64,000 nucleotides of DNA, from NCBI GenBank assembly GCA_963691705.1, contig OY829545.1, forward strand, positions 37,807,475-37,871,474, given 5' to 3'. The notes beneath the pieces are model-generated. The model was not told the origin of the DNA. It saw nothing but the letters and a program-made list of their open reading frames with translations, and searched no databases. Source of the stretch: Viola odorata. Its lineage: Eukaryota > Streptophyta > Magnoliopsida > Malpighiales > Violaceae. The position numbers were made by a program, and so were the translations under genes. Shown here piece after piece: positions 17,440 to 45,328 of the stretch; the stretch's first letter is position 1, and every line of letters starts with the position of its first letter.

Positions 17440-17462
17440 CCCGTGAAAAACGTGAGCACGGG
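17440..17462 (+). other. Covarying hairpin A-1
   Basis: CCCGTG, 11-nt loop AAAAACGTGAG, CACGGG: a perfect 6-bp stem. Relative to the copies in C, the fourth stem pair is G-C instead of A-T. Confidence 0.7.
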
Positions 17463-17493
17463 TTTGAACTAAAAGAAAAGAATGAAAACAGCC

Positions 17494-17516
17494 CCCGTAA
17501 AAAGAGTGAGTAAGGG
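17494..17516 (+). other. Covarying hairpin A-2 (one mismatch)
   Basis: CCCGTA, loop AAAAGAGTGAG, TAAGGG. Five of six pairs form. Confidence 0.55.
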
Positions 17517-17612
17517 AAAGAAAAAGAAAATAAAGTGAACTTGTATGCGAAAGTAAAAGATTTGCGCAAAGCACTTGTTTTACAAAAATAGAATTTCGGC
17601 GAGAATCGCCCT

Positions 17613-18914
17613 TTGCTTTTGATTCGCTTTAAATCTTTTTGTTTGAGCACTACTAACCTTGATCCTTTAGCTTCTATGCCTTCTTCTATCTTAGCTCTTT
17701 TGCAAGAGTTTCAAGATGTAACACCCGAAGAGATGCCACCCGGTTTGCCGCCAATCCGAGGCATTGAGCACCAAATCAATTTTGTGCCGGGTTCGACTAT
17801 CCCAAATAGACCAGCCTATAGGAGCAACCCAGAGGAGACTAAAGAACTTCAAAGGCAAGTAGATGAGCTCCTTAGCAAGGGATATATCCGAGAGAGCTTG
17901 TCTCCATGCGTCGTTCCGATGATTCTAGTGTCGAAGAAAGATGGAACTTGGCGAATGTGTGTTGACTGCCGAGTTGTCAACAAAATTATGGTAAAGTATC
18001 ATCACCCCATACCTCACTTAGATGATATATTAGATGAGCTTAGTGGTAGTGTAATTTTTTTAAAAATTGACTTAATGAGCGGCGATCATCAAATTAGAAT
18101 GAAAGAGGGTGATGAATGGAAAACGGCATTCAAAATAAAGTATGGTTTGTATGAATGGTTAGTGATGCCGTTTGGATTAATAAATGCACCAAGTACCTTC
18201 ATGAGACTTATAAACCATGTTCGTAGGCGTTTTGTAGGAAAATATGTTGTTGTATACTTTGATGACATCTTAGTTTATAGCAAATCTTTGCATGAGCATG
18301 TTTCACATCTTAAAGAGATTTTCCTATCCTTGCGTGAAGAGAAGCTTTATGCTAAACTCTCCAAGTGCTCTTTTGCTTTAGAACAGGTTGAATTTTTAGG
18401 GTTTCTTGTTGGCAAGGATGGTGTTAAGGTGGATGAAGCGAAAGTGCAAGCGATCAAGGAATGGCTGAAGCCAAAAATAGCAAGCGATATTCGCTCCTTT
18501 CACAGCTTAGCTTCCTTTTACCGTCGCTTCATTCGTGATTTTAGTACTCTTGCTGCCCCACTTAATGACCTAACTAAGAAACATGTTGATTTCAGGTGGG
18601 AGGAACCTCAAGAGGCCGCATTCCAAGCGTTGAAGGACAAGCTGTCCAACGCGCCCGTGTTAGCCCTTCCCGACTTTGACAAGCCGTTTGAGTTAGACTG
18701 TGACGCGAGTGGAATCATCATAGGTGTTGTTTTGATGCAAGAGAAGAAGCCAATAGCCTTCTTTAGTGAGAAGATCAAGGATGCCCAGCTACGTTATCCA
18801 ATGTACGATAAGGAGCTCTATGCGCTAGGTAGGGCATTCGAGGTTTGGCAACACTACTTGATGACGAGGGAATTTGTGGGTGCACACCGACCACTTGAGC
18901 CTCAAATATCTTAA
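17613..18914 (+). pseudogene. Element A reverse transcriptase and RNase H N-terminal part
   Basis: An open frame of 433 codons. RT landmarks in order: LLQEFQDVTPEEMPPGLPP, SKGYIRESLSPC, DGTWRMCVDCRVVN, the catalytic VVYFDDILVYS (about 18250) and VRSFH-type SFHSLASFYRRFIRDF. RNase H begins with FELDCDASG, carrying its first catalytic Asp, and YPMYDKELYAL. RT looks intact in its catalytic residues, though YHQIRM of relatives reads DHQIRM. The frame breaks within RNase H near 18890; the rest lies one frame over (HTDHLSLKYL). Confidence 0.85.
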
Positions 18915-20257
18915 GGGACAAGGGAAGTTGAATAAAAGACACACCGTATGGTTGGAGTTCTTGGAAGCTTTCCCTTATCACATCAAGTATAAGGAAGGAA
19001 AAGACAATGTTGTGGCCGACGCATTGTCTAGGAGGTATGTCTTGATCTCTTCTTTAAGTGTCAAATTTTTAGGGTTTTCTCAAATCATTCCACTCTATCC
19101 TACTAATTTGGATTTTGGTAAGATTTATAAGACTTGTGATTCCATGGCTGAAGTTAAATTCTTTACGCATGATAACTATCTATTTCGGCGCAAGTGCCTT
19201 TGCATTCCTAGATGTTCTTTGCGTGAATTACTTATGCATGAATCACATAGTGGTGGATTTATGGGCCACTTTGGCATTAATAAAACCTATGACATGCTGA
19301 AATCACACTTTTATTGGCCTAAGATGAAACGAGATGTTGTGTGTGTGATTGCTAGATGTGTAATTTGCCAAAGGGCAAAATCTCGATTAGCTAGTCATGG
19401 TGAATATATGCCGTTGCCCGTATCTTCCCAACCTTGGACCGATCTGTCCATGGACTTCATTGTAGGATTACCTAAGTCTTGGGATGGTAAGGATAGTATA
19501 TTTGTTGTTGTGGATCGATTTTCCAAAATATCGCACTTTTTGCCTTGTAAAAATACTAATGATGCGTCCATTCTTTAGAGAGGTAGTCCGCCTCCATGGT
19601 ATTCCTATTAGTATTGTTAGTGACCGTGATGGAAGATTCTTGAGCCACTTTTGGCGAGTTTTGTGAAGTCGCCTTGGAACTAAATTGCTATATTCGACTT
19701 CATGTCACCCTCAAACCGACGGTCAAACTGAGGTTGTTAACCGTACTGTAGGGTCTCTTTTATGCTCTTTAGTTACCAAGCATGTATCCATTCTACTACC
19801 AATTGTTCACCGTTTGAAGTAGTTTATGGCTTTAATCCGATTACTCCTATGGATTTAACCCCTTTGCCTTTGAGTGATGTTTCTAACTTAGATGGACAAC
19901 AGAGGGCCGAAACCATACAAAAGATACATGAGAAGGCTAAGCAAAACATTGAGCGGATGAATGAGCGCCTAGTGCGCAAGCGCAACGAAGGCTGCAAGAC
20001 CGTGTCCTTCCAAGTTGGCGATTGGGTATGGCTGCACCTCAGACGTGAGAGGTTTCCAGAGAAGAGACGTGGAAAATTAGCACCACGGGGAGATGGCCCA
20101 TTTCAGATTGTTGAGAAGATCAACAACAACGCTTACCGCCTCGACCTTCCAAGTGAGTATGGTTCGATTCATGGAACCTTTAATATTTCTGACTTAAGGT
20201 TGTTTGTTGCAGGTGATGAGGATGTTGCTGATCTGGATTCGAGGAAGAATCCTTCTC

Positions 20258-43048: not shown

Positions 43049-44746
43049 ATGTCTAACCAAAGTGTAGTTGGGAACAATAACAGTAGCTCGAAGGAGGTGA
43101 ATCAGTCTTTGATGAAAAAGATGGAGGTTATGGAACGGGGTCAAGATGAGTTGAGGGAGATGTTCTAGGCTTTCATGAAATTATAAGTTAAACCCGTTGA
43201 AGTCCTAACAGCAGTCGTAGCATCCTAGCCACTCAAGAATCATGTTATCTGTGAATTAGAGTACGGGATAAACGGAAGGGCGACCAACCAGAACTTTCCC
43301 AACACCCTTACCACGGGTCCCCGATGGCAAGGTATTGCGAATGCTGAGGCCCATGCCTTCGTACTCCAAGATCTCCTAGCTCAGGGCTATGATGCTCAAA
43401 TGCACAGTAGTCATGACACCAGGCCGTTGCAGGGTCGTGGTCCGCAAGGTGTGTAAACAGATAACAAACGGCATACTTCTGAACCCTGACGGTATACCAT
43501 TACTCACAGGCACACGAGGCCATCATGGAGGTCCCGATACTTCTACCACCAATGACCGACCGATAGTTCCCCACATACGGAGCCGTACTACTCCTAATCA
43601 TGATAGGGAGTTCTATGAGGAGGTATACGAAGAAGCGAATGATGACTTCACTGATCATGGGGAGAGGGAACAGATAAATAGAGGAAGGAGGGGAGGGTTA
43701 CTGGAGCCACGGTTTGATGACAACCTGAATAGTATCAAAGTGCAGATTCCTACCTTTGAAGGTACCACTGACCCATTTGAATATATCAATTGGGAAGGCA
43801 AAATCCAAAGTATCTTCAAGTGCCACCAATATTCGAAGGGTAAGAAAGTAAAACTAGCGGCAATGGAGTTTGATGGGTATGTCGTTAGTTGGTGGGAGAA
43901 AGTCTGTCGGAAAAGATAGGGAGCCAGAACCATTCGGACGTGGGAGAAAATAAAACAGGTCATGAGGGAAAGATTCGTGCCATCCATCTACAGACGGGAA
44001 TTGTAGAACCAGTTGCAAGGTCCCAAGTAAGGAGCCAAGTCTGTGGGAGATTACTATAATGACCTTGAGTCCCTTCTTACCTAGAACGATACCCATGAAG
44101 ATGAAGAGATAACTATGGCTCGATTCTTGAATGGTGTGAATGAGAAGATTAAATACAAACTAGAGTTACTGGATTTTGAAAACTTACAGCCTATGCTCCA
44201 CTACGCTCTAAAAGTGGAAGCTCACGAGGCAACCAAACGGAAGAGTTTTCCCAATCGAAACACCAACCCACCCAACACCTATTCATCTCAGACTAAATCA
44301 CCCTGGAAACCTTACCAAAAAAACCAAAAAAATCCACCATACACCAAGACAACCCTCTACTCACCAAAGGCTTACACTAAACCTACCGGTAACCTAATAA
44401 CATCCAGTAATACCGTTAACCCGATAGCACTAAACTGTTCCACTTCCAATCCACTAAGGCCTCACTCTACCAACATTGAATGCCTCAAATGTTGGGGAAG
44501 GTGTCATATTTCATCTTAATGCCCAAACAGGCGAGTGATAGTCATCCGGGAAGGAAGGTATGAAACTGATAGTGAAGAAGAAGAAATACTAGAAGGAGAA
44601 AACTACCGGAATGAAAGCTATTGGGAAGAAGAAGCAGTAATGAACAGTGATGAGGAAGAAATACAACCATCTTCCACCATGACGTTAGTTGTGCGGAGAA
44701 GCCTAAATGCCTACGCCAAGAGAATCTTTTCCATTCCTGATGTGAA
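43049..44746 (+). pseudogene. Element E gag
   Basis: ATG 43049 (MSNQSVVGNNNSSSKEVNQ). After frame changes the main frame (43389 on) shows PTFEGTTDPFEYINWEGKI, AAMEFDGYVVSWWEK, FLNGVNEKIKYKLELLDF and a Pro/Asn/Lys-rich tail. The zinc knuckle CLKCWGRCHISS ends in a stop where Gln is expected, directly before the last Cys (TAA about 44517). An acidic stretch (SDEEEIQPSSTMTLVVRRSL) leads to the protease. WW is kept here at the place where element A has W-stop. Confidence 0.8.
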
Positions 44747-45212
44747 GTGCAAGGGAAGATAGTGTCCATGATTGTGGATAACGATAGTGCAGTCGACGCC
44801 GCAAGCCACCTCTTCGTAAGTAAACTGAATCTTCCAACGACACCGCATCCCAAGCCTTATTCCCTCCATTGGTTTAGTGATGACGGTGAGGTCAAAGTCA
44901 AGGGACACGTCCTTGTAAGTGTCAAGATGGGAGGATATGAGGATGACCGTTTGTGTGATGTGGTACCAATGGATGCTAGTCATATTCTGTTAGGACGCCT
45001 GTGGTAGTTTGATAGGAATGTGATTCACGACGGGCGCACTAATAAAATTTAGCTTATCCACCGCGGTAAGAAATTTAGTATCCCACCTCTTTCACCACTT
45101 CAAGTCCGTGAGGACCAACGACAAATGGAAAAAGCTAGCGTCGAATTCCATATTATGAGTAAATTGAGAGAAAAGAGTGGACAGAAGAAAGTAAGACGAG
45201 AGCATAAAACAC

Positions 45213-45235
45213 ACCATGAAAATAGTAAGCATGGT
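45213..45235 (+). other. Covarying hairpin E-1
   Basis: ACCATG, loop AAAATAGTAAG, CATGGT; perfect 6-bp stem, outer pair A-T. Confidence 0.7.
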
Positions 45236-45305
45236 TTCGGGAGTGAGAAAGAGTGACTGCGAGGGGAAAGGAGTGGAGAGAAAAAGTTAAGGGAGCAAAA
45301 TACAC

Positions 45306-45328
45306 GTCATGAAAAGAGTAAGCATGAC
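45306..45328 (+). other. Covarying hairpin E-2
   Basis: GTCATG, loop AAAAGAGTAAG, CATGAC; perfect 6-bp stem with both outer pairs changed compared with C-1. Confidence 0.7.

Follow-up and report, generated by a model that had tools for sequence, protein, structure and literature searches.

For plant long terminal repeat (LTR) retrotransposons it is so far poorly defined how RNA is selected for packaging and how enzyme-less elements hitch-hike in the process. Among the closest described systems, given here as they are set out in excerpts of the papers cited, is the packaging signal of mouse mammary tumour virus (MMTV), in which the single-stranded purine loop of SL4 is bound by Gag and acts with the primer-binding site (PBS; PMC8096270). 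In foamy viruses Pol enters the particle through binding of the pregenomic RNA, as described for CasII, and the motif PARM activates the protease-reverse transcriptase (PMC6669543), whilst in wheat (Cereba/Quinta) a gag-bearing element without reverse transcriptase (RT) and integrase is mobilised by an autonomous partner of the CRM type (PMC11302176). The CRM clade itself is characterised by LTR ends TGAT/ATCA and by a CR motif which is read into the 3' LTR (PMC3059260). Here we describe a short hairpin found in three LTR retrotransposons, A, C and E, within a 64-kb stretch of the Viola odorata genome (contig OY829545.1, positions 37,807,475 to 37,871,474; hereafter the window). It is probably a cis-acting recognition hairpin in the sense-strand RNA of a CRM-like group of plant LTR retrotransposons, used in trans for packaging or polymerase recruitment.

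A near-constant loop on covarying stems

In general the unit consists of a 6-bp stem, free in sequence, which carries a near-constant, purine-rich 11-nt loop, as a rule AAAANMGYRAG. Its clusters comprise one to four copies and mostly lie within coding sequence, between protease and RT. All seven copies listed for the window in the initial annotation were confirmed, on the plus strand: in element A, A-1 (17440..17462; CCCGTG/CACGGG) and A-2 (17494..17516; CCCGTA/TAAGGG); in element C, C-1 (27783..27805) and C-2 (27831..27853), both CCCATG/CATGGG, and C-3 (27880..27900; GCATG/CATGC, 5 bp); and in element E, E-1 (45213..45235; ACCATG/CATGGT) and E-2 (45306..45328; GTCATG/CATGAC). The loop in these window copies is AAAANMGTRAG. 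The single mismatch reported for A-2 is present, with the correction that its innermost pair has also changed on both sides, from G-C to A-T; its loop is the same as in the other copies and its 3' arm now contains an in-frame stop. The exact loop core, GAAAANNGTNAG, has six matches in the 64 kb, all on the plus strand and each with a perfect 5- or 6-bp stem, and a scan for any 5-bp stem with an 11-nt AAA...AG loop returned the same six on the plus strand and none on the minus strand.

Perfect stems of 6 bp or more around an 11-nt loop are not rare (29 in the 64 kb), and it is the family of near-identical loops on different but matched arms which exceeds chance, not the stems alone. When the 3' arms were re-dealt among the seven window copies, at least 40 of the 42 pairs were formed in 0.04% of permutations (P 0.0004, all six pairs), and P was 0.005 for the two outer pairs only. 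The predicted RNA folding energies of the single hairpins (z -1.2 to -3.1) are weak evidence when taken alone. No Rfam family matched the window at its gathering score.

Genome-wide searches were carried out in the plant's own assembly (699 Mb) with the reversed pattern as control. The pattern CATGAAAANNGTNAGCATG gave 4473 matches against none for the control, and the loop pattern with the two middle stem pairs left free gave 6293 against 4. In the first 100 of these 6293 places, which all lie on the first contig and are non-independent since they include family members, 97 were Watson-Crick at both free pairs and five cores occurred (AT/AT, AC/GT, TT/AA, AA/TT and GA/TC), the stems being CATG/CATG in 77, CACG/CGTG in 13, CTTG/CAAG in 4, CAAG/CTTG in 2 and CGAG/CTCG in 1; the remaining 3 were not fully Watson-Crick, one of them being a G-T wobble.

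Covariation was scored in an alignment of 78 distinct 31-nt sequences, from fetched loci and the window, which were chosen by the exact loop AAAANMGYRAG only and with no stem filter, therefore including unrelated loop look-alikes. The score was 0.448 against 0.159 (standard deviation 0.018) after shuffling, with none of 500 shuffles as high; 80.6% of cells were paired against 61.5% in the shuffles, and 86 cells against 33 were changed on both sides. Controls in which the partner was slid by one to three columns reached only 0.013-0.147, and the two pairs directly outside the 6-bp stem showed no covariation excess. The count of pairs with any double change was not above the shuffles (6 against 4.9; 121 of 500). 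Among 80 distinct 27-mers, 53 to 71 were Watson-Crick at each of positions 1-6, falling to 10 and 18 at positions 7 and 8.

As shuffles leave relatedness in place, the stems were also placed on a tree of RT pieces, built from the loci that gave an RT match, 26 of 48 (L042-L061 left out except L056, and no named reference elements), on which only hairpins with at least four of five inner pairs were written. Separate clades hold separate cores, namely CTTG/CAAG, CAAG/CTTG with CTAG/CTAG, CGAG/CTCG, CACG/CGTG and CGTG/CACG, and the CATG/CATG core is found in most clades. The CTAG/CTAG core, as in the hairpin GGCTAG/CTAGCA of locus L103, lies outside both the five cores of the genome list and the CGTG/CACG of element A.

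The changes in the stem also change the peptide. At different cores the unit reads HEKSEH, LEKSKQ, QEKSEL, LEKNEL, REKSEL, HEKSKR, REKREH or CEKSEH, so that the arm residues H/H are replaced by L/Q, Q/L, R/L, R/H, H/R or L/L with pairing unchanged. The initial annotation had proposed a selected hairpin rather than an effect of codon choice and had set a larger alignment as the test; paired stem changes far above the shuffles, together with the amino acids altered by them, support that proposal. In 59 of 70 cases the distance from one unit to the next is a multiple of three, and thus the unit as a rule also lies inside a reading frame. The 11 non-triplet spacings (in L113, L118, L126, L021, L079, L110, L111 and L117) include some doubtful extra units, and others may come from frameshifted copies.

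The loop is constrained in length as well as in sequence. With the stem fixed as CCCATG/CATGGG and a free loop of 4-20 nt, 3178 places were found against 369 in the control; of the 50 places listed, 34 were classed as having motif loops, 32 with 11 nt and 2 with 10 nt, and the other 16 had loops of 4-19 nt. Linkers picked by RT alone, with no reference to the hairpin, were taken from upstream of RT matches in two lineages, the element A family and the L108 lineage (20 of 150 listed matches each), and a hairpin was counted if four or more of five inner pairs were formed around an 11-nt loop that had no more than one mismatch. It was present in 36 of the 40 linkers (16/20 of the A family and 20/20 of the L108 lineage), in 33 of them with no loop mismatch (16 and 17), and the loop sequence itself was found in 19/20 and 17/20, respectively. 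A scan of the linkers with loop lengths of 4-20 nt found any perfect 6-bp stem with an 11-nt loop 40 times, against 4 after one simple base shuffle per linker, and all 40 of these loops start AAA and end AG despite their differing stems. A freely varying loop length, which had been named as grounds for rejecting the hairpin, is thus not what is seen (32/34 motif loops of 11 nt; 40 against 4 in the linkers). Loop lengths of 4, 15 and 17 also stood above the shuffle in the 40 linkers (17 against 3, 14 against 8 and 14 against 6).

In 100 CATG-stem places among the matches listed, in a search that allowed silent choices, the first loop codon (glutamate) was GAA in 99, the third was AGC in 21 and AGT in the rest, and the last ended in A in 4. 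Outside the first hairpin the RT-picked linkers, with the frame anchored on the hairpin, have 236 GAA and 238 GAG, and in the L108 lineage the loop reads AAT at the serine codon in the hairpin of 14 of 20 linkers. The loop is therefore tight at its ends and loose in its middle.

Hairpin-bearing elements without detectable enzymes

The surroundings of the hairpin (about 8-10 kb) were read at 20 places, and in several hairpin-bearing LTR elements tblastn gave neither an RT nor an integrase match below E 0.01. These are L048, whose gag shares a frame with the hairpin (LTR identity 97.1%), L057 (98.9%), L044 (97.2%), L049, in which a protease is present (87.7%), L051 and the window's element C (94.0% and 97.8%), and L043 and L059 (99.8% and 97.7%). 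A Pfam search on five long frames of these elements found only gag, in L048, a sub-threshold S68 match in L044 being disregarded. Stop codons stand on either side of the hairpin, in the frame of the unit, in L043 and L059 and in their relatives L045 and L047. Mobilisation of such elements in trans is suggested by the missing enzymes and the young LTRs.

Such elements retain the hairpin and the PBS. The PBS 12-mer, TGGTAGCGGAGC, occurs in 12 of 15 elements examined, at the end of the detected 5' LTR in 9 of those; it is one base off in L058 and two off in E, and is absent from L042. Both the 12-mer and the hairpin are kept in L048, L057, L044 and the L043/L059 pair, and in L043 and L048 the hairpins lie a few hundred bases upstream of the 3' LTR. 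Internal regions were compared among ten elements, with L043, L044 and L057 each set against the others (plus strand; threshold E 0.01). Each of the 19 internal segments which L043 shares with the nine others falls on its hairpin stretch, the 12-nt PBS, also common to them, being too short for the segment list. L044 and L057 share the hairpin segments and the polypurine-tract end, L057 also the PBS end, and both have further stretches of 19 to 326 nt in common with some relatives. As the unit is kept beside the PBS and the polypurine tract despite gene loss, it behaves as a cis-acting signal.

The family represented by L043 (L043:163-4730) consists of young 4.6-kb LTR elements, with LTR ends TGTTA/GACA, in which no reading frame spans the hairpin. 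At least 23 copies are at least 97% identical over the hairpin region, and many LTR pairs are about 4.1 kb apart. Its copies also occur far out on the chromosome arms, and it has the PBS 12-mer and the hairpin in common with the CRM-like elements.

Candidate roles of the hairpin

The sequences show that pairing is maintained, that the loop is constrained and that the unit is kept by elements without detectable enzymes, and these three features together underlie the explanation which we consider probable, namely a recognition hairpin in sense-strand RNA. The stem would form in the RNA, as covariation and predicted folding suggest; the purine-rich loop could then be recognised by the nucleocapsid of the element's Gag or by its protease-RT, by analogy with known systems; and this binding might select the RNA for packaging and reverse transcription, including in trans. 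Non-autonomous elements would keep the tag in order to be accepted in trans, which would account for its retention where enzymes are missing. Of the functions put forward in the initial annotation, packaging or factor binding fits best as a putative role. A wider version of the proposal, the chances of which we consider evenly poised, is a modular RNA entry ticket: one type of hairpin, defined by its loop and its pairing and not by arm sequence, would decide which RNAs the machinery of the element accepts, and would be common to autonomous and enzyme-less LTR elements, including the young, non-coding L043 with its other LTR ends. A hairpin with a constant loop, a free stem and thousands of natural copies offers a ready mutational series for locating the binding partner, and serves as a sequence mark for non-autonomous elements which have no gene in common with their partners.

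Several points weigh against a recognition hairpin. All of the evidence is DNA sequence of one genome. Four of the 20 A-family linkers are without a paired 11-nt hairpin (one with a 12-nt loop, two degenerate and one interrupted), as copies decay once inserted, and the hairpin stretch of the L043 family shares its place among the best-conserved stretches with others. No motif of the HEKSxH type (H/R-type) was found in 40 readable plant linkers from 120 listed RT-relative proteins, and a wider peptide pattern for the other cores matched one of 141 proteins (P0103, a K/E-rich linker stretch judged to be chance), so that the hairpin may be confined to a few lineages. In yeast Ty3, nt 429-4979 are dispensable when the proteins are supplied in trans, according to the excerpted account (PMC4974528), and thus an internal signal is not general among Ty3-type elements.

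A role at the DNA level, be it a hairpin in single-stranded cDNA, a cruciform or a paired site for a host protein in replication, integration or chromatin, is unlikely. Predicted DNA folding does reproduce the stem in full for six window copies and for the most part for the seventh, A-2, and the listed RT matches appear, by eye, to be clustered in mid-chromosome. However, arms of free sequence are ill-suited to a sequence-specific duplex site, the hairpin and the PBS have the same orientation in all 12 elements with the exact PBS 12-mer, and copies of the L043 family reach well beyond mid-chromosome. Quite unlikely, in our estimate, is mutational upkeep without selection, in which RT, by switching templates within an imperfect palindrome, copies one of its arms from the other and so keeps stems perfect. 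Such correction would yield paired changes in any sequence, and many families do show new stem cores. The loop would however be left unprotected, yet it is near-fixed, including at two silent positions; pairing ends at 6 bp; and enzyme-less elements keep the unit. Upkeep of the palindrome leaves the loop unexplained. A comparably small chance is given to protease activation as in foamy viruses, where an RNA hairpin might join two protease-RT molecules and so turn the protease on. The hairpins adjoin the protease region and are often multiple, and PARM is, in the text excerpted, a purine-rich, stem-bearing RNA motif inside pol with just that activity (PMC6669543). Elements without a protease nevertheless keep the hairpin, and the model would then need the RNA to recruit the enzyme in trans.

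The initial annotation had also suggested recoding, that is, a frameshift or readthrough signal which sets the ratio of Gag to Gag-Pol. The position of the hairpin inside pol, often in several copies, would suit this, but protease, hairpin and RT of element A lie in a single frame, spacings are mostly in triplets (59/70), and elements which have no RT, only gag or no frame at all still keep the hairpin. The frame change or stop which marks a site of programmed recoding was not found in element A; of the three in-frame stops in its linker, one falls in the 3' arm of A-2, which is mutated, and the other window copies are without that stop. Recoding is disfavoured and is very improbable. Equally hard to sustain is selection on the HEKSxH peptide repeat as protein, with the hairpin as a by-product of its codons: the unit is in the pol frame in most elements and its E-K-S core is recurrent, but arm residues change while pairing persists, and in the young L043 family the unit is bracketed by stops. 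Plant elements with an intron near the protease-RT region exist, and GTRAG stands in most loops, so that a 5' splice site shown or hidden by the stem was also considered; it is extremely unlikely, given the AGC in place of AGT in 21 of the 100 CATG-stem loops among the matches listed and the AAT at this place in 14 of 20 linkers of the L108 lineage. Thirteen stretches of viral contigs match the CATG-stem pattern but have other flanks and no RT similarity, and were taken as chance; an RT query against the viral contigs found none. The hairpin probably belongs to no known Rfam family, is not shared with phages, and acts neither as a site of recoding, nor as a splice donor, nor as a peptide motif in its own right.

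Carrier elements and their relation to known systems

Element A has the PBS 12-mer at 15001..15012 and an open frame at 16803..17372 which is named protease by its position between gag and RT; it is in frame with the hairpins and RT and gave no Pfam match, and the region matches sequence upstream of the hairpin in related loci. The hairpins start about 2.4 kb past the 5' LTR and are followed by the open frame of RT and RNase H at 17613..18914, all on the plus strand. The linker between protease and RT (17370-17592) has three in-frame stops between long, open neighbouring frames, the copy having decayed there. The 3' LTR begins at about 20271, and TRAKAR (nt 20308) and TRARAR (20386), a CR-like motif of centromeric retrotransposons, are read into it (20308..20403). 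A gag-bearing element on the minus strand (20546-23481; Retrotrans_gag Pfam match, frames 20985-23149), which is flanked by 98% repeats at 20546-20845 and 23182-23481 that are probably its own LTRs, seems to be nested in this 3' LTR. A piece of plant-type Ty3 polyprotein 68% identical to A (P0005) comes from a record named Staphylococcus aureus, and is probably plant DNA contamination of that assembly. RT matches in tandem, many of them 2971 bases apart, lie on C4 near 30.1-30.3 Mb.

Element C, also on the plus strand, lies between LTRs at 25119..26273 and 29709..30863, with the PBS 12-mer at 26276..26287 and one open frame of 731 aa (27662..29857) which contains the three hairpins and no Pfam domain. 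It is a derivative in which neither a protease nor an integrase could be detected and the one RT-like match is marginal (E 0.012); the location given in the initial annotation, between protease and RT, is thus inexact for C. TRVKAR (29762) and TRARAR (29831) again fall in the 3' LTR. Directly 3' of the hairpins is a 103-nt direct repeat (28094-28370; 88%), and at C1:24307717-24316909 (partly L054) C-like units of three hairpins stand in tandem with a period of 4539 bases. Element E has plus-strand LTRs at 41255..42115 and 49455..50318 (89% identical), and its RT was detected about 2 kb past the hairpins.

A protein search with the linker of element C found nothing at E 10 or better, and one with the natural gag-hairpin frame found 21 gag relatives. 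No description of such a hairpin was found in titles and the openings of abstracts, which is no proof as subscription papers were mostly outside the search.

LTR ends and a TRARAR-type motif give elements A and C the appearance of CRM group A chromoviruses: their LTRs start TGATA, one base off the TGATG of the clade, and end CATCA, and their coding sequence continues into the 3' LTR, where it encodes a TRARAR/K motif. LTRs start TGATG in L044 and TGATA in L048, L049, L051 and L057, whereas L043 (TGTTA/GACA) falls outside these ends. With its other LTR ends and its copies far out on the arms, L043 indicates that the hairpin can accompany more than one type of LTR. The likeness to the described CRM clade extends to LTR ends and the CR-type motif, and the word hairpin is absent from the main text as excerpted (PMC3059260). 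For Cereba/Quinta, recognition is likewise argued from a shared PBS, LTR ends and polypurine tract; the corresponding main text, as excerpted, mentions no internal hairpin and does not contain the word (PMC11302176). In Ty1 and Ty3 the RNA is also chosen by Gag and is usable in trans, but the cis sequences are delimited to the ends and, in the excerpted account, the packaging sequences are not precisely defined (PMC4974528).

Compared with the retroviral psi, the hairpin is not located in the 5' leader or at the start of gag, and it is, like psi, kept by defective elements that are presumably mobilised in trans. CasII and PARM of foamy viruses resemble it as cis-acting RNA inside pol (the location in the autonomous elements here) which is purine-rich and stem-bearing; elements A and B of the foamy viruses differ in lying at the 3' end of pol, and near-identical loops on free stems are not described in the text excerpted (PMC6669543). 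The MMTV signal differs in spanning the 5' untranslated region and the start of gag, in its larger structure and in Gag binding having been shown, whilst the hairpins here are one to four small units that lie in pol or, where the element is short, ahead of its 3' LTR, and are known from sequence alone. What SL4 and the present hairpin have in common, as far as the excerpted account goes, is a purine-rich apical loop in which the ends matter most and the centre is tolerant (PMC8096270), here a constant AAAA and AG on either side of a variable middle.

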